From a virus, in the IMG/VR virus record IMGVR_UViG_3300032323_002905, positions 25,453 through 89,452 of that record: a stretch of DNA of 64,000 nucleotides. The stretch is one strand, 5' to 3'. The notes under the pieces were generated by a model, which had not been told where the DNA came from, did not search any database, and saw nothing but the letters and a program-made list of their open reading frames with translations. Each line of letters opens with the position of its first letter. Within the stretch, counting starts at the first letter, position 1. Of this stretch, positions 1,018 through 48,966 are shown in pieces. Both the position numbers and the translations under genes were made by a program.

Positions 1018-4000
1018 TTATGCTCCACCTGTAGTTACTGTAGTACTTAGAGAGTATATTATACCTTGTACTTCTGTATGGAACCAAATAGTAGTTGTAG
1101 GTGCTGTTCCTGAATTACTTAAACGTAGGGCAAATACACCATTTGAATCTGTTACCGCATGATTAATTGAGCCTGTTGTATTAACCACAACTTGACTTCC
1201 TGATGCTATAGTGTATGTTTGAGCGGCGATAGCTGAAGCTGCTCCAAATTGAGATGTAGATGTCCACCAATGTATTAATTGGCGTGGATTGCTTAAAGCT
1301 GTGCCATCTACTTCTAAAAATGAAGCCGATATCACTCGTGTTGTTGTTGTTCCTGTTGCTGATAAACTACAACTTACAAATCCATCATTTACAATATTTC
1401 TTATAGGTCCTGTCACTATTAATGAACCTGTAATTATAGTATTACCATTAACATCTAATGTAGCGTTTGGAGTTGTGGTTTTATTTATTGCTACTCTACT
1501 TCCTGTAGTGTATAATTGAACATTTCCATCACCGTCTGATAAAACCACTGTATTAGTTAAATTAGAAGTACCTGCGTAAGCACCTATAATAGTGTTTTTA
1601 TTTCCTGTTGTGATTTGAGTTCCTGCATTATATCCTATAAGTGTATTATTATTTCCTGTAGTTAAAATATATCCTGCTATATTTCCTAATGCTGTATTAT
1701 ATGTTCCTGTTGAAGCTGATACTAAAGCTTGATATCCTATAGCTGTATTTCCTAAACCAGTGTTATTAGTTGGGGTAGCTCCTCCTCTTAAAGCTTCAAA
1801 TCCTATAGCTGTATTATCACTAGAAGTCATAAAATACATTGAATACCAACCTACTGCTGTGTTATTAGATGTAGCTGTACTTGATCTTAAAGCATTTGTT
1901 CCTATACCAATATTAAAACTTCCAGATGTATTAGAAAGCATGGGTGCTACACCTATAGCTATATTATCATTTCCTACTGAATTGTTTTGTAATGCTCCTG
2001 AACCTAAAGCTGTGTTACCATCTCCAATAGTGTTTGCATTCAATGCTGCATTTCCTATTGCTGTATTAGCTAAGCCACCGGCGGCGTTATTAGTAAGAGT
2101 ATTTTTACCAAAAGCTGTATTTCCATCTACTGCTCCTCCTCCTCTACTAGCTGTTATACCATTTATATATAAAGCAGAACCATCAAAGGTTAAATTAGAT
2201 TCTACAGTCGCGTTAGGCGCAGTTCCATTTAATGTTATAACACCATTATCTGTTGTTCCTGTTAAAGTTAAAGTTCCAGCTGTACCTGAAAGACCTGAAC
2301 GACCTGATAAACCTGATAGGCCTGAAATGCCTGATAAACCTGAAATACCTGATAAACCAGAGATACCTGAAATGCCTGATAAACCTGAAATACCAGAAAT
2401 ACCTGATAAACCAGAGATACCTGATAAACCTGAAATCCCTGAAGTTCCTTGTTCACCCATAGGTCCAAATCCCACATTAGTGATACCTTCTCCACTTGTG
2501 TCATAATTTGAAGAAAAATATAATGGATTACCTATTGATCTAGCTACAGTTCTTTCTAAATTACTATTTTTGTAATATCTTATATTATAACCATCATATG
2601 TTATATAAAAAATATCACTTGTAGTATAAGATAAAGCTGCGCCTACTGTTGAGCCTAATTCATATATATAAACATCTCCTCCACTATTAGTAAATTGAAA
2701 TCCATAATTTATAGTGTTTGGATTATTACTAGATGGTGTTTCAGTTAAACCAAAAACTGTATCTATGTTACCATTTGTAGCTTTAGCATTTACATAAGCT
2801 CCTCTTATATAGCCTTGAGTTGAAGATACATAAGGTTGATAACTACTACCTCCTGTTTGTATAAATGTTGAAGAATCAACTCCATAAGAAGTATTTGAAA
2901 ATATAGGTGTAAATACTGGTATGCCTATAAGACCTGAAATACCTGATAATCCTTCTAAACCTGAGATACCACTTATGCCTGAAAGTCCTGAGATACCTGA
3001 TAAACCTGAGATACCACTTATACCTGAAAGTCCTGAGATACCTGATAAACCTGAGATACCACTTATGCCTGATAAACCTGATATTCCTGAAATACCGCTT
3101 GTGCCTGATAAACCTGAAATTCCTGAAATGCCTGAAAGACCTGATATACCACTTAAGCCTGATATACCTGATAAACCTGATATTCCTGAAATACCTGAAG
3201 TACCACTTAAACCTGATATACCTGATATACCGCTTAAACCTGATGAGCCACTTAAGCCACTTAAACCTGAAATACCTGAAATACCACTTGTACCTGATAA
3301 ACCTGAAATACCACTAATTCCACTTAATCCTGAGGTACCTAATAGACCTGATATGCCACTTAAACCTGAAATACCGCTTAGACCTGAAATTCCTGAAATA
3401 CCACTTAAACCAGAGATACCTGATAAACTTAAATTAGTTCTATAAGCTATATTACCTGAAGTATCAGAAACTAATATTCTATCTTCAGTTGTACCTGCTA
3501 CTAAAGTAGGTAAGGTTAAACTTCCTGAAAGTGAAGTACTACCTGTTACTTGTAAACTACCTGATATTTTAGTAGTTCCTATTAATAATTGAATATCATC
3601 TGTAGCATCACCAAATTGATTAGAACCAGATGAATATATTACAGATGCTGTTTCGTATATTGTATTTAAATATGTTATACTACCAGTTCCATTAACTGTT
3701 AAATTACCTGTTACTGTTAATGTTGTTCCATCATAAGTAAAATTAGCTGAACCTGCTGGGTTATTGGATCCATCTTTATAAACTACCTGATTAGCTGAAC
3801 CAGCTACAGGTCCTATTATTCCTGAAAGACCTGAAATACCGCTTAGGCCTGATATACCACTTAAACCTGAAATACCACTTAGACCTGATATACCTGATAA
3901 GCCACTTAAACCAGAAATACCAGATAATCCTGATGTACCACTTAGGCCTGAGATACCTGAGATGCCACTTAAACCTGAGATACCTGATATGCCACTTAGA

Positions 4001-4563
4001 CCAGATATACCTGATATACCACTTAGACCAGACACACCACTCAAACCAGAAATACCTAATGTACCACTTAAACCTGATAAACCAGATAAACCACTTAAAC
4101 CTGATAAACCACTTAAACCTGATAAACCAGAAATACCACTTAGACCAGAAATACCAGAAATACCACTTAGGCCAGAGATACCAGATAGGCCACTTAAACC
4201 TGAACGACCAGATAAACCACTAATCCCTGATAATCCACTTATGCCTGAAATACCGGATAAACCACTTATACCTGAGATACCACTTAAACCTGAAATACCT
4301 GAAGTACCGCTCAAACCTGAAACAGTAGGTGTAATTGCATATGATGCTGTTACAGCATAAGATGAACTTAAAGCTTGTATAGCATAAGAAGAAGTAGCAG
4401 TTAATGCACCACTTATATCTACTGAACCTGTAACTGTTAAGGAACCACTTATAGTTATATCGTAAGCCGCGTTACCGGTTAAGGCATCAATTGATTGAGA
4501 TATTTGTTGAGCTTGTACGGTTGCACCTGTTACTATGCCCGCATTAGACAGTACTTGAGCCAT
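1018..4563 (-). CDS. Collagen-like tail fibre with YadA-type head repeats
   Basis: Probable host-recognition fibre of 1181 residues. After a short N-terminal region (1-82) come three proline-free collagen-like blocks of Gly-X-Y triplets, mostly GLS and GIS (about 82-249, 378-545 and 703-762). Between blocks 2 and 3 is a globular segment with aromatic strands (about 545-702). Residues 805-1020 carry repeats such as NTAIGNAAL and NTALGSGAL, the 14-15-residue beta-roll repeat of YadA/Hep_Hag trimeric adhesin heads. The last 160 residues are Ser/Thr-rich beta structure. Gly-X-Y repeats and YadA heads both imply a homotrimer. Unlike the 2176-residue fibre it has no S74 chaperone end. A terminator and then an ATATTTAT motif lie just upstream. 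Confidence 0.85.
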   Translation of the reverse strand: MAQVLSNAGIVTGATVQAQQISQSIDALTGNAAYDITISGSLTVTGSVDISGALTATSSYAIQALSSSYAVTASYAITPTVSGLSGTSGISGLSGISGISGLSGISGISGLSGISGLSGRSGLSGLSGISGLSGISGISGLSGISGLSGLSGLSGLSGLSGLSGLSGTLGISGLSGVSGLSGISGISGLSGISGISGLSGISGISGLSGTSGLSGISGLSGLSGISGLSGISGLSGISGLSGISGLSGIIGPVAGSANQVVYKDGSNNPAGSANFTYDGTTLTVTGNLTVNGTGSITYLNTIYETASVIYSSGSNQFGDATDDIQLLIGTTKISGSLQVTGSTSLSGSLTLPTLVAGTTEDRILVSDTSGNIAYRTNLSLSGISGLSGISGISGLSGISGLSGISGLLGTSGLSGISGISGLSGTSGISGISGLSGLSGSSGLSGISGISGLSGTSGISGISGLSGISGLSGISGLSGISGISGLSGTSGISGISGLSGISGISGLSGISGLSGISGISGLSGISGLSGISGISGLEGLSGISGLIGIPVFTPIFSNTSYGVDSSTFIQTGGSSYQPYVSSTQGYIRGAYVNAKATNGNIDTVFGLTETPSSNNPNTINYGFQFTNSGGDVYIYELGSTVGAALSYTTSDIFYITYDGYNIRYYKNSNLERTVARSIGNPLYFSSNYDTSGEGITNVGFGPMGEQGTSGISGLSGISGLSGISGISGLSGISGISGLSGISGLSGISGLSGLSGRSGLSGTAGTLTLTGTTDNGVITLNGTAPNATVESNLTFDGSALYINGITASRGGGAVDGNTAFGKNTLTNNAAGGLANTAIGNAALNANTIGDGNTALGSGALQNNSVGNDNIAIGVAPMLSNTSGSFNIGIGTNALRSSTATSNNTAVGWYSMYFMTSSDNTAIGFEALRGGATPTNNTGLGNTAIGYQALVSASTGTYNTALGNIAGYILTTGNNNTLIGYNAGTQITTGNKNTIIGAYAGTSNLTNTVVLSDGDGNVQLYTTGSRVAINKTTTPNATLDVNGNTIITGSLIVTGPIRNIVNDGFVSCSLSATGTTTTRVISASFLEVDGTALSNPRQLIHWWTSTSQFGAASAIAAQTYTIASGSQVVVNTTGSINHAVTDSNGVFALRLSNSGTAPTTTIWFHTEVQGIIYSLSTTVTTGGA
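2279..2453 (-). repeat. Gly-X-Y coding repeat block, fibre 1 block 3
   Basis: Degenerate tandem 9-base units encoding GLS/GIS triplets on the minus strand, residues about 703-762 of the 1181-residue fibre. Confidence 0.9.
2929..3429 (-). repeat. Gly-X-Y coding repeat block, fibre 1 block 2
   Basis: About 500 bases of degenerate 9-base units encoding collagen-like triplets (GLS, GIS, GTS), residues about 378-545. Confidence 0.9.
3818..4322 (-). repeat. Gly-X-Y coding repeat block, fibre 1 block 1
   Basis: About 505 bases of 9-base units encoding GLS/GIS triplets with occasional GRS, GTS and GVS, residues about 82-249. Confidence 0.9.
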
Positions 4564-10441: not shown

Positions 10442-13400
10442 CTATTTATTTTTAAGTTGTTCTTCTAAATTAATTACTTTATCATTTAGTTCTTGAATAG
10501 CAGCAATTAACAATGGTACTACCTTTTCATATTGTACTGTTAAATAATTTTCTCCTGTTTTACTTACTATATTATTGTTCTCATCTTTAGTAACATCAAA
10601 TGGAGCTGGTTTTACTGCTTCTGGTAATATTTTTTGTATATCTTGAGCTATAACTCCAACTTGTCTTTCTGTATTAGATTCAAAATAAATATCTGCTAAT
10701 TCATTTTGATAATAAGTTACCGCTCTTAATGAATTAACTTTATTTAAAGCACTTTTAATTGGTTCTAATCCTTTTTTAAGTCTTTCATCTGAGTAATATG
10801 CTGTTATATTTCCTGTTGCATTTATAGAACCACTAACATCTAATGCTACTGCTGGGGCTGTAATACCAATACCTACATTACCACCATTAACCATAGACAT
10901 AACTTCATTTCCTCCACCATCAACAAATCTTAATCTATCTGTTGTACCACCATAATATATTTGAAAAGCATTAGTGTTATTACCTAATCTTATTCCAGAT
11001 CTAGATGTTGTATTGTTACCATTTGAAGCGTCTCTTTTTATATCTAAAAAAGTACCCTCTTGTGAAGCATACATTGTAGCTCCATTAGAAATAGATAATT
11101 TACTTGTTGGACTAGTAGTACCAATACCTACGTTACCTGAACCAGACATAACCACAGTTTGACCACTTGTACTTCCTCCAGGATAAAATGCTAAAAAGGA
11201 ACTAGCACCTGAGTTAGCTGCTATTGTTGGTATATTAGCTCCATAGGCTCCACCCCAAGTTAAATTATTTCCACTTGCTAAGTTAACAGAACCATTAATA
11301 TCCAATTTAACCACAGGTGATGTTGTTCCAATACCTACATCACCTCCACTAAGTATAGCTAATCTTGTTGCACCAGCAGTTCCTAATCGTAAACTAGCTA
11401 CAGCTTCACCCATCATTACTAAGTTACCTCCACCACCAGCATTGTATTGTAAATATCCAGTACGAGTATTATTAGCTGTGTTATAAAAAGATATATAAGC
11501 AGCATCATTTTGTAAACGTAATAATTCCGCTGCTCCTGCTATTTGTAATAATGAACCATCAAATGTTAGATTAGATTCTCCATTAAATGGAGTTCCAGAA
11601 TCTCCTGTAGCTGTTACTACATAATTATTAACATTATTAGATATTGAGGTTGCCGCTGCTAAACCTGAAATACCTGAAGTACCTACTTGTCCAGAAGCAC
11701 CACTTGCTCCTGAAGCGCCGCTAGCACCGGATAAACCTGAAATACCAGATGTACCAACTTGTCCTGATGCACCTGATGCTCCTGAAGCACCACTAGCACC
11801 TGAAGCACCACTTGCACCTGATAATCCTGAAATACCACTTGTACCTACTTGGCCTGAAGCACCTGATGCTCCGCTTGCCCCTGAAGCACCTGAGGCACCA
11901 CTTAGTCCTGAAATACCTGAAGTACCAACCTGTCCTGAAGCGCCACTTGCGCCTGAAGCTCCTGAAGCGCCACTTGCACCTGAAGCACCTGATAATCCTG
12001 AAATACCAGATGTACCAACTTGTCCTGAAGCACCACTAGCACCTGATAGACCAGAAATACCTGATGTTCCTACTTGTCCAGAAGCACCGCTTGCGCCTGA
12101 AGCACCTGAGGCACCACTTAGTCCTGAAATACCTGAAGTACCTACTTGGCCTGATGCACCTGAAGCGCCACTTAAACCTGAAATACCACTTGTACCTACT
12201 TGACCTGAAGCTCCTGATGCTCCGCTTGCTCCTGAAAGTCCTGAGATACCTGAAGTACCTACTTGGCCTGATGCACCACTAGCCCCTGAAGCTCCTGATG
12301 CTCCACTTGCGCCTGAAAGTCCTGAGATACCTGAAGTACCTACTTGGCCTGAAGCTCCTGAAGCACCGCTTGCACCTGAAGCTCCTGATAAACCTGAAAG
12401 TCCTGAAATACCTACTTGGCCTGATGCACCACTAGCACCTGATGCTCCTGATAAACCTGATATACCACTTAATCCTGAAATACCACTTGTTCCTACTTGG
12501 CCTGAAGCCCCACTAGCACCTGAAGCACCTGAAGCGCCACTTAAGCCTGAAATACCTGATATACCAACTTGGCCTGAAGCACCACTCGCTCCTGAGGCTC
12601 CTGATAAACCACTTATACCTGAAGTACCTACAGTACCACTTAAGCCTGAAATACCTGAAGTACCTACTTGGCCTGATGCACCACTAGCACCTGATGCTCC
12701 TGATAAACCTGATATACCTGATAAACCTGATGTTCCTGCTGCTGTTGTTGTAATAACATCACCAGTTGTAGTAACAGCTAATAACGCCGCTACAGATCCG
12801 GGAAATGCTCCTGAACCTGTGTACGCAGCTAAGTTCATCTGTCTAGAACCTAAACTCCATGATGCTACAGAAGCATTTGATGTAGTTGAAGTACCTCTTA
12901 ATATTCTGATAGTATTTTGCCAGTTATCAATCATTGAACCTGATGTCCAAGATGTACCTGGTTGTAATGTTAATTGACCGCCTTCATCTGGTCCTAATGG
13001 ACCTAAATATAAATTAGATTCTGTACTTGTATTTGTAGTACCAATAGCAACTACACCATCTTTTGTTATATTAAATACACTACCTGTTGCACTACCTGAA
13101 GCAGTAACACTAATATAATTTGCTGTTTGTCCTGCTGCTCCTCTAACTTGTAAACCACCAACTGAAGATGTAATATTAATTACTTCTACAGCATGGGTAG
13201 GTACAGGTGTTAAACCATAAGCACCATTTATAAAACTTGTATAATAAGAAGCAAACTGTAATCTATTAAAAGGAGCATCAGCTCCATATGTACCACCTTG
13301 GAATGTGACGTTATTATTAGACCCACCTGAGCCTGAATTTTTTATTTGGAAATAAGCTGTTTGTAAATTGTCTGCCCACCCTCCAACATTAGAAGTAATT

Positions 13401-16400
13401 CTAAGTTGAGCTGAATCAGTAGAATTTCCTCCGGCATTACCTTCTAATATTAATGAACTAGCTAAAGTTTTAATATTAGGAGAAGCATTATTAGGTCCGT
13501 TTAATACTAAACTACCTGTAAGGTTTAATATACTACCATCAAATTGTAAATTAGCTTCTCCATTAAATGGAGTAGTTGAGTTTCCTGTTGCTGTTACAAC
13601 ATAGTTATTTACATTATTAGTAATTGCTGTTGCTGCTGCTAAACCTGAAATACCTGAAGTACCAGATAATCCACTTATACCAGATGTTCCTGATAAACCT
13701 GAGATACCTGAAGTACCACTTAAGCCTGAAATACCTGACGCACCTGATAAACCACTTATACCAGATGTACCAACTTGTCCTGAAGCACCACTTGCGCCTG
13801 ATGCTCCTGAAAGTCCTGAAATACCTGATATTCCACTTAAACCAGATATACCTGATATACCACTAGTACCTGAAGCTCCGCTTGCTCCTGATGTACCACT
13901 TAATCCTGAAATACCTGAAGTACCACTTAAGCCTGAAATACCGCTTAAACCTGATAAACCTAAGGTACCACTTAAACCTGATAGGCCTGAAATACCAGAT
14001 AGACCTGATGAACCTGATAGACCTGATAGACCTGATTCTCCTGAAAGTCCTGAGATGCCTGATAAACCTGATATACCTGATAAACCACTTATACCTGACA
14101 AACCTGATAATCCAGAAAGTCCTGAAAGACCTGAATTACCTATAGAACCTACTGTTGTTATAACAAATGAATAGTAAGCGCTACCTTCTGTATAATATAC
14201 AACTGAATGTGATGTTGAGTCATCATTATTTAAATACAATCTAACAATCATTCTGTTAGTTGGATCTATAGTTGTTGTAGGTAATACTATATCAACATTA
14301 GTTTCAACTGGTGTTGAAGCATTTACCCATCCAATTAAAGCATCACTAGATGTTATAGCAGGACCAATAGGAGTACCTGATGAATTAGCTAATTGTATTT
14401 CACAATAAGCATTAATTTGATCATTAGATGCTTGTTTTAAATAATTAAAATGGAATCTTTGAATACCTGCTGGTATTACCGCGAATCCTAATTGTGGAGT
14501 TATATAATCTGAAACAAGAACTCCTTGCTGATTTCCTGTTAAATTTGTTGTTAATGTTTGTTGAGAAGCTGTTGATGGAGTAGCAGCTAATACTTTGTAT
14601 CCTGAAACATCTGAATTTTGACTTTCATTAAAATAATATGTTTGACCTGCTGTTATACCAGTTGCTCCACTTAAACCTGATATACCTGATAAACCAGAAA
14701 ATCCTGATAATCCAGAGATACCTGAAAGACCGGATAAACCAGAGATACCTGATAAACCTGAAATCCCTGATAAGCCTGATATACCACTTAAGCCTGATAT
14801 ACCTGATATGCCTGAAAGTCCTGAGATACCAGATAAGCCACTTAAACCAGATTCACCTGATAAACCTGAAATACCTGATAAGCCTGATATACCACTTAGA
14901 CCTAAAAGTCCTGAAATACCAGATGTACCTGAAAGTCCTGATAGACCTGATAGACCTGAAATACCACTTAAACCTGATAGACCTGAGATACCTGATAAAC
15001 CACTTAGACCTGATAAACCACTTAGACCTGAAGTAGCTGTAACTCCTAATGTAGTTACTAAATATGAATAATGTTGTGTGCCTTGAGTATAAAAATTAAC
15101 AGTTTTAGGTGAAGGTTGATTATTATTAACATATATTTTATAAACTAATCTATCTGTTGGGTCTAATATAGCTGTTGTAGCTACAGCATTATTTTTAACT
15201 TCAACAGGTGTTGTGTTATTTGTATCCCAACCTAATTGTATAGTATCTGATGTGAATAACAAGGTTTCGACACTACCTGTAGTATATTTAGATATAGTGT
15301 AGTAAGAAGTAATATTATCATTTACAGCAGGTTTAGTAAAATAACTATATGAATGCCATATTCCATTTGGAATTACAGATACACCAGGAACATCATTATC
15401 TGTTATCCATCCTGAATCAACTATAGCATTTTGTTGACTCGCTGATAAATTTACTGGGATAACTTGTTCAGATGCTGATACTGTGAATTTACTTAATTGA
15501 AAGTAAGGAGATGAACTACCTGAAGCTGAAGAATTTACAAAGAAATTTTGACCTCCTGAGTTTCCATTTTCTCCACTTAATCCTGATATACCTGAAAGTC
15601 CTGATAAACCTGATATACCTGAAATACCACTTATACCTGATAATCCTGAAAGACCAGAATCACCATTAGTCCCTGATAAACCACTTAAACCAGAATTACC
15701 TGATAAACCACTTAAACCAGAAATACCAATTCCACTTAAGCCTGAAATACCTGTACCACTTAAACCTGAAATACCTGAATTTCCTTCTAAACCACTTAAA
15801 CCAGATAGACCTGAAACTCCAAAGCCATTTAAACCAGAAATACCTTCTAAACCTGATATACCACTTAGACCTGATAAGCCAGTTCCACTTAAACCTGATA
15901 TACCAGAATTACCTGATAAACCACTTAAACCAGATGTACCAAATAAACCAGAGATACCTTCTAAACCACTTAAACCTGAGAGACCAGATAAACCAATACC
16001 ACTTATACCTGATATACCACTTAAGCCTGAAGTACCTTCTAAGCCACTTAAACCAGATATACCACTTATACCAGATATACCTGATATACCTGAAAGTCCT
16101 GAAATACCTGATTGACCAGATAAACCTGAAGTACCTATACCACTTAATCCTGATAAACCGCTTGTTCCTATTATACCTGATATACCACTTAAGCCTGATA
16201 TACCTGATAAACCTGAAATACCTTCTAAACCACTTAAACCTGAGAGACCAGAGTCACCACTTAAACCTGAAATACCTTCTAAGCCTGAAAGACCTGAAAG
16301 TCCTGATATACCTAAAGTACCACTTAAACCAGAGATACCTGAAATACCTGAAGTGCCAATAGTTCCACTTAAACCTGAAATACCTGAAGTACCACTTAGT

Positions 16401-16972
16401 CCACTTATACCAGATATACCTAATGTTCCTGAAAGTCCTGAAATACCTGAAATACCACTTAGACCTGATATACCACTTATACCTGATAAGCCTGATAAGC
16501 CTGACAAACCTGAGCGACCACTTAAGCCTGAAATACCTGATAAACCAGATGTACCAATTCCACTTAAGCCTGACAAACCTGAGCGACCACTTAAGCCTGA
16601 AATACCACTTGTACCTAATAAACCTGATATTCCACTTATACCTGAAAGTCCTGAAGTACTATTTCCACTTAAGCCTGAAAGTCCTGAAAGTCCTATTCCG
16701 CTTAAACCTGAAAGACCAGATAAGCCAATACCACTTAAGCCTGAAATACCACTTAAACCAGATAATCCTGATAAACCAGATAAACCAGATTGACCATTTA
16801 AACCTGATAAACCTGATAATCCTGATAAACCAGATTGGCCATCTAAACCTGATAAACCAGATACTCCTCCTCCACCTCCACTACCTGAAGTAGGTACTTG
16901 AAAGGAAGCTAAAGATACTTGATCTAAAAATCTTACATTGTTTCTTGGTATAGAGTTATTTATTCTGGCCAT
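10442..16972 (-). CDS. Giant collagen-like tail fibre with S74 chaperone domain
   Basis: 2176 residues. Four proline-free Gly-X-Y blocks (about 36-472, 648-771, 943-1111 and 1414-1771) alternate with globular domains. The two globular domains after blocks A and B are diverged copies of each other (for example YTQGTQHYSYLVTTLG against YTEGSAYYSFVITTVG). The segments after blocks C and D share NNVNNYVVTATG and FNGE-NL-FDGS. The last 116 residues are a peptidase S74 intramolecular chaperone: YYSDERLKKGLEPI, with the predicted nucleophile Ser near residue 2061 and the following Lys residues, then VGVIAQDIQKILPEAV and a final coiled coil. By family knowledge the chaperone trimerises the fibre and cuts itself off. 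Its start abuts the gp15 stop. Probably a receptor-binding long fibre. Confidence 0.9.
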   Translation of the reverse strand: MARINNSIPRNNVRFLDQVSLASFQVPTSGSGGGGGVSGLSGLDGQSGLSGLSGLSGLNGQSGLSGLSGLSGLSGISGLSGIGLSGLSGLSGIGLSGLSGLSGNSTSGLSGISGISGLLGTSGISGLSGRSGLSGLSGIGTSGLSGISGLSGRSGLSGLSGLSGISGISGLSGISGISGLSGTLGISGISGLSGTSGISGLSGTIGTSGISGISGLSGTLGISGLSGLSGLEGISGLSGDSGLSGLSGLEGISGLSGISGLSGISGIIGTSGLSGLSGIGTSGLSGQSGISGLSGISGISGISGISGLSGLEGTSGLSGISGISGIGLSGLSGLSGLEGISGLFGTSGLSGLSGNSGISGLSGTGLSGLSGISGLEGISGLNGFGVSGLSGLSGLEGNSGISGLSGTGISGLSGIGISGLSGLSGNSGLSGLSGTNGDSGLSGLSGISGISGISGLSGLSGISGLSGENGNSGGQNFFVNSSASGSSSPYFQLSKFTVSASEQVIPVNLSASQQNAIVDSGWITDNDVPGVSVIPNGIWHSYSYFTKPAVNDNITSYYTISKYTTGSVETLLFTSDTIQLGWDTNNTTPVEVKNNAVATTAILDPTDRLVYKIYVNNNQPSPKTVNFYTQGTQHYSYLVTTLGVTATSGLSGLSGLSGLSGISGLSGLSGISGLSGLSGLSGTSGISGLLGLSGISGLSGISGLSGESGLSGLSGISGLSGISGISGLSGISGLSGISGLSGISGLSGLSGISGLSGFSGLSGISGLSGATGITAGQTYYFNESQNSDVSGYKVLAATPSTASQQTLTTNLTGNQQGVLVSDYITPQLGFAVIPAGIQRFHFNYLKQASNDQINAYCEIQLANSSGTPIGPAITSSDALIGWVNASTPVETNVDIVLPTTTIDPTNRMIVRLYLNNDDSTSHSVVYYTEGSAYYSFVITTVGSIGNSGLSGLSGLSGLSGISGLSGISGLSGISGLSGESGLSGLSGSSGLSGISGLSGLSGTLGLSGLSGISGLSGTSGISGLSGTSGASGASGTSGISGISGLSGISGISGLSGASGASGASGQVGTSGISGLSGASGISGLSGTSGISGLSGTSGISGLSGTSGISGLAAATAITNNVNNYVVTATGNSTTPFNGEANLQFDGSILNLTGSLVLNGPNNASPNIKTLASSLILEGNAGGNSTDSAQLRITSNVGGWADNLQTAYFQIKNSGSGGSNNNVTFQGGTYGADAPFNRLQFASYYTSFINGAYGLTPVPTHAVEVINITSSVGGLQVRGAAGQTANYISVTASGSATGSVFNITKDGVVAIGTTNTSTESNLYLGPLGPDEGGQLTLQPGTSWTSGSMIDNWQNTIRILRGTSTTSNASVASWSLGSRQMNLAAYTGSGAFPGSVAALLAVTTTGDVITTTAAGTSGLSGISGLSGASGASGASGQVGTSGISGLSGTVGTSGISGLSGASGASGASGQVGISGISGLSGASGASGASGASGQVGTSGISGLSGISGLSGASGASGASGQVGISGLSGLSGASGASGASGASGQVGTSGISGLSGASGASGASGASGASGQVGTSGISGLSGASGASGASGQVGTSGISGLSGASGASGQVGTSGISGLSGASGASGASGASGQVGTSGISGLSGASGASGQVGTSGISGLSGASGASGASGASGASGASGQVGTSGISGLSGASGASGASGASGASGQVGTSGISGLSGASGASGASGASGASGASGQVGTSGISGLSGASGASGASGASGQVGTSGISGLAAATSISNNVNNYVVTATGDSGTPFNGESNLTFDGSLLQIAGAAELLRLQNDAAYISFYNTANNTRTGYLQYNAGGGGNLVMMGEAVASLRLGTAGATRLAILSGGDVGIGTTSPVVKLDINGSVNLASGNNLTWGGAYGANIPTIAANSGASSFLAFYPGGSTSGQTVVMSGSGNVGIGTTSPTSKLSISNGATMYASQEGTFLDIKRDASNGNNTTSRSGIRLGNNTNAFQIYYGGTTDRLRFVDGGGNEVMSMVNGGNVGIGITAPAVALDVSGSINATGNITAYYSDERLKKGLEPIKSALNKVNSLRAVTYYQNELADIYFESNTERQVGVIAQDIQKILPEAVKPAPFDVTKDENNNIVSKTGENYLTVQYEKVVPLLIAAIQELNDKVINLEEQLKNK
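11661..12734 (-). repeat. Gly-X-Y coding repeat block D, fibre 2
   Basis: Higher-order tandem repeat: about fourteen modules of (GAS)2-6 GQVGTSGISGLSG. The number of GAS triplets varies between modules, as expected from repeat slippage or unequal recombination. Confidence 0.9.
13641..14146 (-). repeat. Gly-X-Y coding repeat block C, fibre 2
   Basis: About 505 bases of 9-base units for GLS/GIS/GTS triplets, with one GASGASGQV module like those of block D. Confidence 0.9.
14662..15031 (-). repeat. Gly-X-Y coding repeat block B, fibre 2
   Basis: About 370 bases encoding GLS/GIS triplets between the two duplicated globular domains. Confidence 0.9.
15557..16866 (-). repeat. Gly-X-Y coding repeat block A, fibre 2
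   Basis: The longest block, about 1.3 kb, encoding over 140 Gly-X-Y triplets near the fibre N-terminus. Mostly GLS/GIS, interrupted by GLE, GTS, GNS and several short breaks such as GIGLSG. Confidence 0.9.
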
Positions 16973-21047: not shown

Positions 21048-22724
21048 TTAGATAGTGTTTAATCCTTGGATGTAGATCTTACCATAAAATTCTGGTCTTA
21101 ACATTTTCTTAGCGTAACGAGTCAATAGACCTTTACGTGGTGTAAATGTATCTGGGTCGTACACAAGTGGAGTCATAATTAATGGAACATATGGAGCAAA
21201 TACAGCACCAGCTTCTAAGAATTGTGAACCTCTGTAACCTAATAACATGATGTTTTCAGTCATGTAAGGGTTTTTGTAAACTGTGTAACGGCCATTTAAT
21301 TGACCTGCTTTTTGTACACCGAAAGCGTATTCCATTTGAGCAGCATCACCATTGTTAGTAGAAGCAAATCCTGGGATTGATTCTAATACTGTAGCTACAG
21401 TTGGAGATGTAACAATAAAGTTAGCACCACCTCTTAAAGTTAATTGGTGAATTTTGTTGCTTAATTTTTGGATTTTAGTTCCTAAAGTTTGGAACCATTG
21501 GCCTTGTGTGTTGTAGAACGCTGAACCACCAGTTGAGAAAGTACCTGTACCTGGATTGTAAACGTTGTTGTTGATTGTTGACCAATATTCAGTACCTGCT
21601 GCTGCGTCTTCGATCAACATATCTAAGATTTCAAGGTCAATTTCCATTGAAATGTACTCAGACATGATGTTTGTTACTTCAGCTTCAGCATCGATATTTT
21701 GGTAAGCAGCTAAATCTTGTGAGAATTCAGGTGTCCATACTGCTTTCAATTTCTTGGTTTTAGCAGTGATGGCTTGTGATTGCATTTTCACGTTGATCTC
21801 AGGGATAACGATAGTAGTGTTTGATGCCGCGTTTGGAACTGCGAATGAAGACGAATCTTCAAAATCACCTACATTATACGGACTCATTTGAGTAGCTTTG
21901 TTATACTCAATTGTATAAGCACCTGCTGGAGCGATTGTAGCTGTTGAAGCACTTACAAAGAATGTAATTGTATTGTTAGTGTAATCAAATGTAGTAAATT
22001 GTTGTAAGTTGTTAGCAGCTGTAATTGCTGAACCTGACAAGATAATGAAACCTCTAACAGCATCCATATCAAAGTTAGGGATGTTTGTAGAAGCACTAAC
22101 TAAAGTAATTGCTTTGATTTGACCTGCAGCAACTGAAGCTGAGTAATCTGAATCAAAGTTAGTTGTAGCTAATGTACCTGAAACAATAAGTGAACCAGTT
22201 TGGATTGTAATAGCTGATGATGAGAATTGGTTGGTAGAGTAAGTAAAACGACCTGTTCCGTACAAACCACCTGCTGGAGCTGGAGTAGCAAACGGGAATT
22301 CACCTGTTGCGTTTCTGTTACCATACAATGAACCACCTACTGAAAATGGATCTTTAGCTGTTCCGTATTGGAAATCTAAGAAGAACACAAGACCTGAAGG
22401 CATTGACATTGGCTGAACTGAAACAAATTCTTTTGCTGCAATTTGAGCAAATACTTTACGTACTAAAGGTAAAGCGATACCAGCCCAGTTTTCTGATTGA
22501 CCAACAGAGAATGAACCTGCTGATGAACCACCACCTGTATCTGATTGTTCCATAACTAATTGCTTAGCTTGGTTTTCTAATAATAAAGACATGTTGTTTG
22601 CCTCTACATTTGTTAAGCCTTCTAATAGACCCGTTTTGTTCCATTTAGAAGACAATTTAGCTGCATCGCTTTGGAGTGATTTCCAAGGATTAGCTGATTC
22701 TAATAATGATTGAATTGTACTCAT
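21048..22724 (-). CDS. gp23: Major capsid protein, gp23-like
   Basis: 558 residues. N-terminal propeptide region about 1-59 is helical and rich in possible gp21 sites; KQLVME at 54-59 followed by QSDTGGGSSAGSFS is the best candidate cleavage point, near the position used in T4 gp23 (after residue 65). Then ENWAGIALPLVRKVFAQIAAKEFVSVQPM and PSGLVFFLDFQYG, and near the C-terminus PYVPLIMTPLVYDPDTFTPRKGLLTRYAKKMLRPEFYG, all typical of T4-like capsid proteins. Between scaffold and phoH, with its own terminator, consistent with high expression. Confidence 0.95.
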   Translation of the reverse strand: MSTIQSLLESANPWKSLQSDAAKLSSKWNKTGLLEGLTNVEANNMSLLLENQAKQLVMEQSDTGGGSSAGSFSVGQSENWAGIALPLVRKVFAQIAAKEFVSVQPMSMPSGLVFFLDFQYGTAKDPFSVGGSLYGNRNATGEFPFATPAPAGGLYGTGRFTYSTNQFSSSAITIQTGSLIVSGTLATTNFDSDYSASVAAGQIKAITLVSASTNIPNFDMDAVRGFIILSGSAITAANNLQQFTTFDYTNNTITFFVSASTATIAPAGAYTIEYNKATQMSPYNVGDFEDSSSFAVPNAASNTTIVIPEINVKMQSQAITAKTKKLKAVWTPEFSQDLAAYQNIDAEAEVTNIMSEYISMEIDLEILDMLIEDAAAGTEYWSTINNNVYNPGTGTFSTGGSAFYNTQGQWFQTLGTKIQKLSNKIHQLTLRGGANFIVTSPTVATVLESIPGFASTNNGDAAQMEYAFGVQKAGQLNGRYTVYKNPYMTENIMLLGYRGSQFLEAGAVFAPYVPLIMTPLVYDPDTFTPRKGLLTRYAKKMLRPEFYGKIYIQGLNTI

Positions 22725-24021: not shown

Positions 24022-24627
24022 TTAAAATAAAGGACATGACCCGTTAGCACATAAAATATCAGTAATAATTGAATTAATTTTACCATATTGATTTGTACTA
24101 GGAATATATGATTCATTTAAGTTAGTTGGTTGCATCCATGAACCTGGGTTAGAAGGTGTTGAAACAAAATCCCAACATAGTAATTCAAAGTCTTCTTGTA
24201 CTTCCATTACATTACCTCTTTGTTCTAATGAACCCATTCCTCTTGATGATACACCTACTGTGATGCCACTTTCAATTAATGCTTTTAAAATGTTGCCTGA
24301 TGGAGTAGGTAAAATTTCAATTAAACCCATTACATTATCTCCATCCCACCAGCATTTTTTAATATTATGTGAAACATTTTTTAAGTTGATAACTGAAGAA
24401 TCCGGATGATCTAATTCGCCTAATGCTCTGTTTTCACGAACAGATTCCATATAGCGATTCATTTCACGTTCCCATAATTCTTTAGCGTAATATCTACCAT
24501 TACCGTTTTTTACTTCGGCGGTAGCTAATACACCTTCTACTAATATGTTACCTCCAGGATTAGTTCCTTCAGTTAACCTAACAGCTTTAGGAGAAAATAA
24601 TTGTGTTTCAATTAATACTTGTCTCAT
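24022..24627 (-). CDS. gp21: Prohead core protease, gp21-like
   Basis: 201 residues, close to T4 gp21 length. Catalytic pattern: ALGELDHPDSS supplies the His, and GITVGVSSRGMGSL supplies the Ser, the arrangement of T4-type prohead serine proteases. NGNGRYYAKELWEREM near residue 40 and FVSTPSNPGSWM towards the end are also family-typical. By T4 knowledge it cuts scaffold, capsid and internal proteins after (L/I)-x-E. The protein itself has such sites near its N-terminus (VLIE, RLTE). It is the presumed processing enzyme for the tagged cargo proteins in this window. Confidence 0.92.
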   Translation of the reverse strand: MRQVLIETQLFSPKAVRLTEGTNPGGNILVEGVLATAEVKNGNGRYYAKELWEREMNRYMESVRENRALGELDHPDSSVINLKNVSHNIKKCWWDGDNVMGLIEILPTPSGNILKALIESGITVGVSSRGMGSLEQRGNVMEVQEDFELLCWDFVSTPSNPGSWMQPTNLNESYIPSTNQYGKINSIITDILCANGSCPLF

Positions 24628-25450: not shown

Positions 25451-25463
25451 TTATAATGAGTTA

Positions 25464-36772: not shown

Positions 36773-37429
36773 TTATTTATTTTGTATTTCTAATCTCTCT
36801 TCCGCGGTTTTGTAATCTACTACTCTAAAAAAATCATTAATATAATTTTTTCTTTGAGATTTGTGTTTTAAATAATAAGCATGTTCCCAAACATCCATAG
36901 CAATTAAAATTTTACCTTTAAAATCTTTATTAAGATATGGATTATCTTGATTAGCATAAGATTCTATAACTAATTTATTTCCTTTTTGGATTAAAAATAC
37001 CCAACCTGAACCAAATTGTTTTAAACCAGCTTCTTTAAATTTTTCTTTAAATTCGGAAAATGAGTTAAAGTTTTTTTCTAATAGGTTTTTAAAATTTGTT
37101 GAAGGTGCTTTGTAATCAGGTGTCATATTTTCAAAATACAAAATATGATTATAAAAACCACCACCATTATTTCTAATAATATCATTTTTAGGATATTTAC
37201 CTAATATAATTTGGATAGCTTGAATTTGATCTTCGGCATTTACTTTAATAGATTTTTTATCTAATTCATCATTAAGTTTATCTGTGTATCCTTTAAAATG
37301 TTTATCAAAATGCTCTTCCATAGTTTCCTTATCTATGTAAGGTTGAAGAGAAGTGTATGAATAACTTAATTTAGGTACTTTAAATTTTGTATCTTTTGCT
37401 TCAGTTAGTAATTGAATAAGATTAATCAT
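36773..37429 (-). CDS. Mn-type superoxide dismutase with capsid-targeting leader
   Basis: 218 residues. Converts superoxide to peroxide and oxygen. All four metal ligands of Fe/Mn SODs are visible: H40 (EEHFDKH), H95 (FYNHILYF), D179 and H183 (MDVWEHAYY), with gateway Tyr48. GGG at 89-91 before the second ligand and Gln161 in ANQDNP are Mn-type signatures. Residues 1-16 (MINLIQLLTEAKDTKF) extend beyond the normal SOD start and match the leader of the kinase at 48211-48966 (MISLVQLLTEASS), with an L-T-E site at 8-10 for gp21. This suggests packaging in the head and possible injection. Overlaps the upstream tagged gene by 8 bases. Confidence 0.88.
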   Translation of the reverse strand: MINLIQLLTEAKDTKFKVPKLSYSYTSLQPYIDKETMEEHFDKHFKGYTDKLNDELDKKSIKVNAEDQIQAIQIILGKYPKNDIIRNNGGGFYNHILYFENMTPDYKAPSTNFKNLLEKNFNSFSEFKEKFKEAGLKQFGSGWVFLIQKGNKLVIESYANQDNPYLNKDFKGKILIAMDVWEHAYYLKHKSQRKNYINDFFRVVDYKTAEERLEIQNK

Positions 37430-38072
37430 TTTTCATTTTTTTAAATGGGGCATATCCTGAACCATATGGTGCTGATCTGCCAGATTGTGGATCTGATGTT
37501 TCTTGTGTTAAATCTCTATAGTTTTGAGATGGAGGAAATGTTCCCATCTTTTTTTTAGCTTGTTCCTTAGTTTTATAAGGTCCAAATTCTTGTCTAATAC
37601 CTGGAGCAAATGGATTATCTTGAATATAATAGTATTTGTCTCCTCTTTTTTCAATAGCTCTATATCTACTTTGACCTCCAAAACCATTTTTTTCATTTAC
37701 ATCTTTAAATTCTTTTAATTTATTCAAGCGTTCTGTTTTCTTTTTAGATGCTTCTTTTTTAGCTGTGATGTATTCTAATCCTTTTTTTAAGCGTGCTTTT
37801 ACTTCAGGATCTTTTGCTTTACCATAAGCGGCTCTAACACGTTGATGAATTAAATTAATAATTTGTGATTGTCTTTTATGTGGTTTTGATTGAAATGATG
37901 ATTTAGATAAAGTATCTTTTATATCTTGAACAGTTTTAAATTTTATACTAACAGTATCATTTGGATTTTCATCAGTATATAAACGACGACCTGATCCTTT
38001 AGGTTTTTTACCTGTACCTACTTTAGGATCACCTTCAGTTATTTCTTTTAATATATCAACTAACTTAATCAT
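37422..38072 (-). CDS. Tagged basic internal protein
   Basis: 216 residues, strongly basic. Leader MIKLVDILKEITEGDPK is of the same type as the SOD and kinase leaders, with gp21-type sites LKE (8-10) and ITE (11-13). The rest includes GKKPKGSGRRLYTDENPNDT, a Lys-rich helical middle with RQSQIINLIHQRVRAAYGKAKD, and a C-terminal YYIQDNPFAPGIRQEFGPYKTKEQAKKKM that looks like a short domain. A nucleic-acid-binding cargo protein is plausible from charge. The ATG overlaps the stop of the preceding 122-residue gene. Confidence 0.6.
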   Translation of the reverse strand: MIKLVDILKEITEGDPKVGTGKKPKGSGRRLYTDENPNDTVSIKFKTVQDIKDTLSKSSFQSKPHKRQSQIINLIHQRVRAAYGKAKDPEVKARLKKGLEYITAKKEASKKKTERLNKLKEFKDVNEKNGFGGQSRYRAIEKRGDKYYYIQDNPFAPGIRQEFGPYKTKEQAKKKMGTFPPSQNYRDLTQETSDPQSGRSAPYGSGYAPFKKMKND

Positions 38073-45331: not shown

Positions 45332-45976
45332 TTATTTTGTTAGATTTTTTATTTGTTCTCTAATGACTTCTTTTAATTCTTTTTTAGTCATTTTGATTTT
45401 CATATATTCAGCTTTAGGATCTTTAGGTAATTCTTTAATTTTACCTTGTTTAACTTGTTGCATAAAATATATTTTTGCTTCTTGATCTAATTTATTTATT
45501 GATTCATCAACTGACTCTTTATCAACTACTGAGTAGTCAATTTTAGCACTTTTCATTACCACATCAATAATTTTTTTAGTTAAGTCTTTAGCTGGATTTC
45601 CTGACTTAGGGAAAACAATAGTATCGTCTTTAACTTTATATTTTAATAATGTAGGTCTAGAAGTAAGTGACTTAACAAAATCATCAATTGCTGTTTTAGT
45701 TTTAACAGGAAAAGGAAAACCTTGATCTTTTTCCATTTTCTTGCGTTTAGCAGGAATAACAGGACCAAAGTGATCTTCTAATGCTTTTTGAATTGATTGT
45801 TTATTACGCATGTTAGAAATATACATTCCGTAGTTATCTAATGTCTCTAAAGCTTTAACTGTATCTTCTACAGAAACGCCTTTAGGAGTAACTACAACAT
45901 CGTAATTTACTTGTTCACGATTTGAAGGTGAAACTTCTGCTCCCTCTTCTTCTCTTAATTTGTATTTATAAGCCAT
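45332..45976 (-). CDS. Phage protein with tag-like C-terminus
   Basis: 214 residues. N-terminus MAYKYKLREEEG has an L-R-E site; the C-terminus MTKKELKEVIREQIKNLTK is strikingly like the MKKSEL leaders, but at the opposite end. Body: helical (VEDTVKALETLDNYGMYISNM), a basic GPVIPAKRKKMEKDQGFPFPVKT, then a C-terminal helical region. If the leader peptides bind the core, this protein may use a C-terminal equivalent as the scaffold does. Overlaps the HAD gene by 11 bases. Confidence 0.6.
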   Translation of the reverse strand: MAYKYKLREEEGAEVSPSNREQVNYDVVVTPKGVSVEDTVKALETLDNYGMYISNMRNKQSIQKALEDHFGPVIPAKRKKMEKDQGFPFPVKTKTAIDDFVKSLTSRPTLLKYKVKDDTIVFPKSGNPAKDLTKKIIDVVMKSAKIDYSVVDKESVDESINKLDQEAKIYFMQQVKQGKIKELPKDPKAEYMKIKMTKKELKEVIREQIKNLTK

Positions 45977-46496
45977 ATTGTTTTAATTCGTCTATTACTT
46001 GATCAGTTGATTTAAATAAAATACCTATTCCTCCTTTTGATTTCCATTGTTCAATATTATCTTCTCTATCGTCAATCAAAATTTTATTTTTACCTGAATA
46101 GTTTTGTTTAGCTGTCGCGTTAGCTAATACTAATTTAGTTCCAGGTATATTATTTTTAACCCACAAACGTTTACCTAAACGTGATTCGTTTTGGCGTGAT
46201 GGAGCTGATAGTAAAGTTGGGTTATGTGGTTTAATGTAGTCCCATAGTTTTTGTCCTTCAGGCATCCATTCCATACCTACCCAAAATCTTACTCCTATTT
46301 GTCTGTCAATTAAATCCCAAAATTTTTCTTTACCATACTTACTTTCGTAAGCACGAGGATCCATATTACCAAAGTATCTAAAACGAGCATCAAAATCAGT
46401 TAATACACCATCCATATCACAGTAGATTTTGTATAGTGATTGAGTTGATTCTTCTTCTTCTTTTAATTGTTTATATAAGTCTGTTAATTTATACAT
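45966..46496 (-). CDS. Tagged HAD-type 5'-nucleotidase
   Basis: 176 residues. Catalytic DMDGVLTDFD (D27 nucleophile, D29 acid) as in the deoxyribonucleotidase (NT5C) branch of the HAD family, with LLSAPS as the motif II Ser and ILIDDREDNIEQW as motif IV. The first 20 residues (MYKLTDLYKQLKEEEESTQS) are an extra leader with an L-K-E site at 11-13, of the capsid-targeting type. Expected to dephosphorylate nucleoside monophosphates; if injected it could act on nucleotide pools early in infection. Follows the nucleotidyltransferase fusion with an 8-base overlap. Confidence 0.8.
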   Translation of the reverse strand: MYKLTDLYKQLKEEEESTQSLYKIYCDMDGVLTDFDARFRYFGNMDPRAYESKYGKEKFWDLIDRQIGVRFWVGMEWMPEGQKLWDYIKPHNPTLLSAPSRQNESRLGKRLWVKNNIPGTKLVLANATAKQNYSGKNKILIDDREDNIEQWKSKGGIGILFKSTDQVIDELKQYGL

Positions 46497-47646
46497 TTTT
46501 TATTTTTACGTCTGAATTTTGAAGAAATTGTCCTTTAGGAGTAGGAGCAGGAGTTGAAGATACTAATGAACCTTCTTTGATACTGTCTTCCCAATTTCTA
46601 AACATCATATTACCTTTTTCGTAAGCTTCTCTTTCAATTTCAGGTAAATCTCCGTCTTCGTTTGTGTTTGTTGTACTGATATTATTTAATCTATTATCTA
46701 AATTTTGTTCATGATGTATCATTTCATGAGAAAATGAACGTAAAACATCTTTAGGATGTCTATTCATAGTAAATAAAGTAATTGATTTTTCTTCTGGGTT
46801 GTAAAATGCTGTTTTGCCGAATACGTTTTCAGCATTTGCTTTATCATTGTTAATGAATTTAACAACAGGTAATGGTTTAATATTCATACCTTGATTAACC
46901 ATATATTTAGTTAATTCAGGAATATATTTTTTATAGTCATTAGTTTTGTTTAAAGACTCATTTAAAGTAGGGTTATTATCATGTCCGCATTTATGACAGA
47001 TATATAAATCTTTACCACCATCTGCTATTTTCCATTCCCAACCACAATTGTCACAAATAACTTCTGTGTTTGTTACTAGTTCTTGAACAATAGTAGATAA
47101 AGTATTAAATACTTCTGTTTTTTCTTTTACTTTTTCAGGGATAAAAGATAAAAATGCTTCTTGTCCTTTTTTTAAGGCTTGACGAGCGTCAGTTCCGCTT
47201 GTATCTAATTGAGTAACTATAGGAGCTAACTCAACATTTTCATACTTACCTATACCTTTTGTTCTTGAAGCCATATCTATAAAATCATCATCTTTACCTT
47301 CTCTAGCTCCAATAACCCATATTACATTCTCGTCTTGATGATTTTTAATATAATCATAGATAGCTGTAATTGGTGAGTTAGTTGGTTCTACTTTTACTTT
47401 TAAAGGTAAGTATTTTTTATAGATATCCCAAACTAAAAGTGATTCAGCTTGAGTAATTCCATCTCTTGTTCCTGAGCCAACATAAATAATAAATTCATCT
47501 ATTTGTGGATATTTTTCTAATGCTGTTTCAACAACTTCAAAGTGACCCTTGTGAGGCGGTTTAAAACCACCCCCATACAAAGCTACAGTTTTAGTTTGTT
47601 CTTGTTCTAAAATAGAATCAGCTAAAAATTTACCTAATGGATTCAT
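46489..47646 (-). CDS. Nucleotidyltransferase-Zn ribbon-HExxH fusion, tagged
   Basis: 385 residues, three parts. Leader MNPLGKFLADSILEQEQ with ILE at 12-14. Residues 19-185: HIGH-superfamily nucleotidyltransferase (ALYGGGFKPPHKGHF with HKGH at 32-35; TSGTDARQAL in place of the usual ISSTxIR), as in NMN adenylyltransferases and cytidylyltransferases. Residues about 197-225: zinc ribbon, CDNCGWEWK to CHKCGHDN. Residues about 235-385: gluzincin-like segment SFSHEMIHHEQ (H307, E308, H311) with a downstream EREAYEKG that could supply the third ligand. This combination is unusual. Substrate specificity cannot be read. Confidence 0.75.
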   Translation of the reverse strand: MNPLGKFLADSILEQEQTKTVALYGGGFKPPHKGHFEVVETALEKYPQIDEFIIYVGSGTRDGITQAESLLVWDIYKKYLPLKVKVEPTNSPITAIYDYIKNHQDENVIWVIGAREGKDDDFIDMASRTKGIGKYENVELAPIVTQLDTSGTDARQALKKGQEAFLSFIPEKVKEKTEVFNTLSTIVQELVTNTEVICDNCGWEWKIADGGKDLYICHKCGHDNNPTLNESLNKTNDYKKYIPELTKYMVNQGMNIKPLPVVKFINNDKANAENVFGKTAFYNPEEKSITLFTMNRHPKDVLRSFSHEMIHHEQNLDNRLNNISTTNTNEDGDLPEIEREAYEKGNMMFRNWEDSIKEGSLVSSTPAPTPKGQFLQNSDVKIKNV

Positions 47647-48210: not shown

Positions 48211-48966
48211 TTATATGAATTGGTTTATTTTTTGTTTTGCTTGATCTAGTGTATCAAAACTACGATCTACAGAAAGTAAATCTTTTATATCTTGGTTTAT
48301 TTGTTCTTTTTCTCTAGCTGATTTAGCTATTTCTTCTGGTGTTTTAGGTTTACCTACTGATTTAGTAGTATCAAAGAAACGTTTTTTAATTTCTTCAGGA
48401 TTATAATCAGTTTCAGCATCTTTAGGATCGTTATTAACTAATATAAAATTATCACCAAATGCTTCTTTATATGTGTCTATATTTTTAGTATAATCACGCC
48501 ATGTTCTTACTACAATAGATGGTAACAAGTTTCTATCACGTTGTAAATTGCGTTCTAATGAAGTAATAGGCGAAACATATAATGCTAACATCAATGTATT
48601 GTATCCTAGTGCTTCAAGTTCCGCTTTTTTCTTAAGTAATGGTTTACTTGCACCTCCTGTACCGTCAACTACCACATCTTTTAGATCTTTAGTTAACTCA
48701 TCATATTTTTCTCTAGTAATTTTTTGCGCTTGTCCCATTAATTTAGCAGCCTGAGATAATTCTTCAGGTCCGAAATCTTTTTGAGACATACCTAAACCTG
48801 ATTTCTTTAATAATTCTTCATAAGAATCATCAATATTAATGACATTAAATGAAGGAGGTATTAATTGTTTAGATATATATGACTTACCAGAACCAGCAGG
48901 ACCAGCTAAAAATATAGCTTTAGGCGCAGATGATGCTTCTGTTAATAATTGAACTAGAGAAATCAT
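48211..48966 (-). CDS. Tagged zeta-toxin-like P-loop kinase
   Basis: 251 residues. Leader MISLVQLLTEASS matches the SOD leader (MINLIQLLTEAKD) with L-T-E at 8-10. Then FLAGPAGSGKSYISKQL (Walker A 22-29), NVINIDDSYEE (Asp pair as in zeta/AAA_33 kinases), VVVDGTGG (second acid) and ERNLQRDRNLLPSIVVRTW with the lid Arg residues. Zeta-type kinases phosphorylate UDP-N-acetylglucosamine or other small substrates; this substrate is unknown. Packaging in the head would make it an enzyme delivered at infection onset. ATATTTAT motif 16 bases upstream. Confidence 0.75.
   Translation of the reverse strand: MISLVQLLTEASSAPKAIFLAGPAGSGKSYISKQLIPPSFNVINIDDSYEELLKKSGLGMSQKDFGPEELSQAAKLMGQAQKITREKYDELTKDLKDVVVDGTGGASKPLLKKKAELEALGYNTLMLALYVSPITSLERNLQRDRNLLPSIVVRTWRDYTKNIDTYKEAFGDNFILVNNDPKDAETDYNPEEIKKRFFDTTKSVGKPKTPEEIAKSAREKEQINQDIKDLLSVDRSFDTLDQAKQKINQFI

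Follow-up and report, generated by a model that had tools for sequence, protein, structure and literature searches.

A tagged modular protein in a T4-like phage lineage, probably a capsid-targeted effector polyprotein divided by the prohead protease

The window analysed here is a stretch of 64,000 nucleotides (positions 25,453 to 89,452 of IMG/VR virus record IMGVR_UViG_3300032323_002905). At positions 46489..47646 (-) it carries an open reading frame of 385 aa with an ATG start and zero internal stops. The parts of this frame, all on the minus strand, are an N-terminal tag (MNPLGKFLADSILE/QEQ, the slash marking the predicted cut; residues 1-14, 47605..47646), a nucleotidyltransferase module (NT; residues 19-185, 47092..47592), a four-Cys zinc ribbon (ZR; residues 190-230, 46957..47079; C198, C201, C217 and C220), an HExxH module (HE; residues 231-358, 46573..46956) and a short C-terminal tail predicted to be disordered (residues 359-385, 46492..46572; pLDDT ~31). 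In the AF2 model the tag forms a capsid-targeting-like helix at residues 3-12, and it ends at residue 14 with a gp21-type L/I-x-E site, ILE/Q (ILE being residues 12-14). Beyond the tag, three more L/V/I-x-E sites are predicted to be processed: VQE189/L at the NT/ZR border (47080..47088), LNE230/S at the ZR/HE border (46957..46965) and IKE358/G at the end of HE (46573..46581), where relatives attach other modules at the same point (ITE/G). These sites lie in or beside the lowest-confidence segments of the model, namely the linkers 186-195 and 226-234 (pLDDT<50) and the tail. Six further matches to the motif are found within the folded modules of the protein. The sequence-only reading had described a HIGH-superfamily nucleotidyltransferase, a four-Cys zinc ribbon and an HExxH segment with a later Glu, all in one 385-residue chain behind an ILE-type site, and each of these elements was recovered.

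The NT module matches Pfam CTP_transf_like (PF01467) at aa 23-154 with 22.4 bits, just above the cutoff of 21, and its closest PDB structures are NadD and CoaD (E 7e-7, Foldseek with the AF2 model). It has the HIGH-superfamily fold and the HxGH and STxxR-type motifs of the NMN/NaMN adenylyltransferases (NadD/NadM/NadR), here a HIGH-type KGH and an STxxR-type T152..R155, which are nearly invariant in 40 relatives. The phage NAD-salvage nucleotidyltransferases NadM and NadR (PMC9503650) share this fold and these motifs, whereas the window protein is without a Nudix or kinase partner, misses every NAD-enzyme equivalog cutoff by far (best 28.9 bits vs 127; TIGR00482 26.2 vs 112.45) and belongs to an 89-kb contig in which no NadV-type or NAPRTase partner was found. 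Assignment to any named family of NAD enzymes was rejected on the basis of these cutoffs, and the earlier suggestion of NAD synthesis is left unproven. The NT piece probably serves in nucleotide or cofactor metabolism. Matches in Lak phages consisted of a single NT-like ORF, which is unfused.

In the HE module, the HExxH motif (HEMIH, residues 307-311, 46714..46728) lies on one helix, and E338 and E340 (46627..46635), candidates for the third zinc ligand, lie on the next, as in zincins. No substitution of H307, E308, H311, E338 or E340 was seen in 40 full-length relatives or in 46 HE sequences. When HE was modelled alone (pLDDT 89, pTM 0.86), the order of elements was helix, three strands, HExxH helix and Glu helix, which is the zincin layout. 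The top Foldseek matches were mostly HExxH zinc peptidases (IrrE, selecase and BepA), none of them significant (best E 0.05). Profile matches were weak (MPTase-PolyVal PF18818, best E 0.011, below cutoff; DUF6782; Peptidase_M91), and a PDB sequence search by the HE profile gave no match. HE is probably a zincin-like metallopeptidase, with a probable role as a host-directed or auxiliary protease. In the case of ZR, its frequent location between other modules might suggest, as a guess, a packing or binding role.

The window also encodes a prohead core serine protease of the T4 gp21 type (24022..24627 (-); PF03420 Peptidase_S77, E 4e-32; phrog_207, E 3.7e-57), which is the proposed cutter, and a gp23-type major capsid protein (21048..22724 (-); PF07068, E 1e-73) with the propeptide sites LLE/N and VME/Q upstream of its conserved region. 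In T4, gp21 cleaves after L/I-x-E (PMC9026906), and internal proteins enter the prohead by means of short N-terminal capsid-targeting sequence (CTS) tags, which are removed at the gp21 motif (PMC9026906; PMC7411985). The tag of the window protein has the form of a T4-type CTS, an N-terminal propeptide of 10-20 aa ending in L/I-x-E, in a phage with both the gp21-type protease and the gp23-type capsid protein. Among relatives, 89 of 102 distinct N-terminal regions have a tag of at least 10 aa holding [LIVM]x[ED], a loose form of the CTS criterion. The tag is absent in L049-L052, L064, L065, L129 and L207 (numbered loci of this analysis), where NT begins at residue 1-3; some of these have tag-like helices deeper inside.

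Between 35 and 49 kb of the window, many small genes begin with the same kind of tag. They include an Fe/Mn superoxide dismutase (MINLIQLLTE/AK..., 36773-37429 (-); PF02777, E 1e-30), a candidate for a head-packaged and injected enzyme, and a P-loop kinase of the zeta-toxin type (MISLVQLLTE/ASSAP, 48211-48966 (-); PF06414, E 4e-9). Two others correspond to partner modules of relatives, a 5'-3' deoxyribonucleotidase (N5; 45966..46496 (-); phrog_2643, E 8e-27) and GR (37422..38072 (-)). Another large group of modular proteins with a tag (MKDIQKIKEFFSKPLNE/...) was observed at L069:11035-13215, L200:7481-9694, L053:9357-11186 and other loci; its members are 480-975 aa long and rich in homology breakpoints. 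A recurring peptide of ~25 aa, SDPQAG..APYGSGFAPVKE, is found at the C-terminus of the GR gene product (window 37422-38072 (-)) and in L030, L072, L106 and L081, between modules of different proteins and often flanked by the same L-x-E-type motif; a second recurring peptide is GTCGYDTDVKTGKKLDTPGGLEE. Two structural proteins (window 1018-4563 and 10442-16972 (-)) contain very long collagen-like repeats of the SGLSGISG type. PADLOC gave weak matches only, which were judged to be due to chance.

In viral contigs, a first scan gave 79 loci, many of them with all three domains in the same order, and a second scan by the HE alignment gave at least 600 rows. Overall, relatives were found at ~100 viral loci and in the cultured Flavobacterium phage immuto (host Flavobacterium sp. 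LMO8), whose 907-aa relative, gp88, is annotated as NadR/NMN adenylyltransferase; immuto likewise encodes a gp21-type protease and a gp23 capsid protein. As the NT-ZR-HE order recurs across many independent contigs, the ORF is neither a chance product nor an artefact or frame fusion, and the concern that the fusion might not be found elsewhere falls away. HE-module relatives were also observed in bacterial and archaeal MAG contigs (L205-L213), which are probably phage contigs that ended up in the bins of cellular genomes.

Among the relatives, NT, ZR and HE are mixed with ~12 other modules placed before, between and after them, giving 2 to 9 modules per chain and lengths of up to 1312 aa. The partners include an ART-like module (PF15633, 20.7 bits, below the cutoff of 25), a putative Pol-beta nucleotidyltransferase (PF01909, 20.6 bits, below the cutoff of 21), a second HExxH family (H2), N5, a GNAT-like module labelled by eye, and VG, GR, TM, CX and YG, which are labels coined in this analysis for modules of no known kind. 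Observed orders are NT-ZR-HE, NT-HE, NT-HE-H2, N5-ZR-HE, NT-HE-ZR-H2, NT-TM-VG-ZR-GR-HE-CX and more. HE is present in nearly all chains and occurs together with NT in most relatives, each is also found without the other, and several modules can stand between the two. By its sequence, the window gene is a short, compact form of this large family of swappable-module chains.

Close relatives (NT 84-96% and HE 89-98% identical to the window protein) form an insertion series. L004 has NT-VTE/G-HE, the window protein has NT-VQE/ZR-LNE/HE, and L006 adds an ART-like module between LNE/G and LKE/G, exactly at the ZR/HE site. Relatives insert modules at these sites, which therefore serve as borders between modules. 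A module that is encoded as a tagged gene of its own in one phage may be internal in another, with the tag site matching the position of the internal site. For example, HE is separate in L067 (LLSE/IYAEPSKF) and fused in L035 (PIEE/MYAEPSKF). In L012 and L048, N5 is fused at the C-terminal end of the chain, and GR is an internal module in L023, L046, L056, L069, L072 and others.

The motif at the module junctions, [L/I/V]-x-E, is at the level of sequence the T4 gp21 prohead-protease motif. Since the module borders were set manually with the motif in view and the junctions are partly homologous, the following counts are not fully independent: of the 140 short junctions counted in nonredundant chains, 139 contained [LIVMF]xE (expected 19.2 from same-length windows inside modules and 67.7 from shuffled linkers), as did 101 of 106 junctions of held-out chains that were fetched later (expected 16.1 and 43.4, respectively), leaving five held-out junctions without it. 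A count by pair type was made to lessen the repeated counting of one inherited joint, and in each of the 56 distinct ordered module pairs more than half of the linkers held the motif (mean expectation after shuffling, 0.46). The motif Glu also lies at a constant distance from the downstream module, in 21/21 cases for VG (7 upstream partners) and 38/41 for H2 (9 upstream partners), and it is found 4 residues ahead of the ZR start in 62/65 copies with 11 upstream module kinds. The pair-type and fixed-position tests answer the problem of independence only partly. The residue at P2 is mainly N/K/E/T/Q at junctions and mostly P or D in motif matches within modules. The motif is short and is also found inside folded modules; this counts against reading the chain as a polyprotein, as do the motif-free held-out junctions and the relatives that have no tag ahead of NT.

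Homology breakpoints served as an independent test. LxE ranked first of 400 a-x-b patterns (404/745 vs 189 by chance), a result which alone is not specific, as other protein clusters of the same loci, used as control, were 1.5-2-fold enriched and one enriched cluster is structural and non-tagged. The enrichment of the control is partly explained by its largest cluster, which consists of other tagged modular proteins. We therefore relied on the junction, pair-type and fixed-position tests.

Given the module order and shuffling, the junction motif and its constant position, the protease and capsid genes and the conserved catalytic residues, we consider it likely that the window protein is a capsid-targeted effector polyprotein, which would be split into individual effectors as the prohead matures. 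We infer packaging, cleavage and injection, as well as the role of each piece. By means of its N-terminal tag the entire chain would enter the prohead core, where the gp21-type protease would cleave it behind [L/I/V]-x-E, both at the tag and in every inter-module linker. NT, ZR and HE would be freed as separate proteins inside the head and injected together with the DNA, and relatives would enlarge this cargo by further modules inserted at the cut sites.

Three other explanations were weighed. A classic polyvalent protein, in which processing of the chain, inside either the head or the host, would fall to HE itself and only removal of the tag to the prohead protease, is rather unlikely. The polyvalent protein survey proposes that zincin-like peptidases autoprocess such proteins (PMC5512222), and the presence of HE in nearly all chains and its weak matches to PF18818, DUF6782 and Peptidase_M91 agree with this. 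However, the junction motif is of the gp21 type and common to the N-terminal tags of HE-less proteins in the window (the superoxide dismutase, the kinase and others), and it is also found at the junctions of HE-less chains such as GR-ZR in L106, L123 and L124; this speaks against HE being the sole cutter.

It is distinctly improbable that the internal L-x-E motifs are scars of in-frame fusion of separate tagged genes, the chain working uncut as a multi-domain protein. The N5 fusions in L012 and L048 do retain a whole tag-like stretch at the junction (YKLKKVMKEEE), as expected of such scars, and modules are also found as separate tagged genes. At most junctions, however, just the three-residue site is kept and the rest of the tag is gone; sites are also found C-terminal to modules and at either end of ZR, and they are retained across very diverged chains.

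The bifunctional injected enzyme proposed earlier remains sensible as far as a capsid-targeted, injected protein is concerned, whereas the single dual enzyme is unsupported, since variable order, separate tagged genes and the motif at junctions fit a polyprotein better. That NT and HE act together in one enzyme is very improbable: the two co-occur in most relatives, and an HE-like gene adjoins a tagged cytidyltransferase gene in S-SRM01, but each module also occurs without the other, their order varies, several modules may part them, and their linkers are predicted to be disordered and carry the motif. The S-SRM01 pair (cyanophage; L082:2890-4843), in which the HE-like gene lies directly upstream of the cytidyltransferase gene (MKNFHQFITE/A), is an unfused counterpart of the NT-HE pair.

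The proposed effector polyprotein was compared with known systems. The T4 CTS internal proteins (IPI, IPII, IPIII and Alt) likewise have a short N-terminal tag ending in L/I-x-E with diverse cargo behind it, and in their genome, too, genes for a gp21-type protease and for a gp23-type capsid protein are present. They differ in that they shed a terminal propeptide (at both ends in Alt), whereas in the window family the motif would also divide a chain of folded modules. Cutting into multiple fragments is described in T4 for the core proteins gp22 and gp67, but their pieces mostly leave the head (PMC9026906). The polyvalent proteins known from phages and conjugative elements (Iyer et al. 2017, PMC5512222) are similar in having many effector-type domains per chain, a zincin-like peptidase hub and expected injection, with ART and Pol-beta nucleotidyltransferase partners, which are sub-threshold matches here. 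In the window family as well, several different effector-type domains are found per chain and are shuffled among relatives. For the polyvalent proteins the embedded peptidase is proposed as processor, and the passages found on them mention neither a capsid-targeting tag nor inter-domain capsid-protease sites. Ejection proteins of the phiKZ/SPN3US type are also head-internal and cut after x-x-E, with long propeptides cut several times (PMC10052503), but 13 of the 14 mapped SPN3US sites serve to remove N-terminal propeptides, not to part several folded effectors from one another (PMC10052503).

By analogy, the family would act like the T4 internal proteins (tag, motif and protease) and resembles the polyvalent proteins (many domains and a peptidase hub). 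We found no description of the union of both kinds, in which capsid-protease sites partition a single tagged chain of effectors; a search of openly accessible literature gave no report of a phage effector polyprotein cut by a capsid protease. On balance we lean towards the view that in a T4-like phage lineage, associated with Bacteroidota and environmental waters, head maturation has become a means of delivery, in which one tag would load an interchangeable chain of effectors, the capsid protease would divide the chain inside the prohead, and modules would be swapped as site-bordered cassettes.

The proteins that phages inject are a large gap in what is understood of early infection. If the proposal is true, a site-to-site rule would predict, in a large group of uncultured phages, which proteins are packaged, where mature effectors start and end, and which domains are effectors. 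Because immuto is cultured (on Flavobacterium sp. LMO8) and carries the family, proteomics could test the prediction. The rule would also tie the maturation of capsids to the evolution of effectors in a way that is open to testing.
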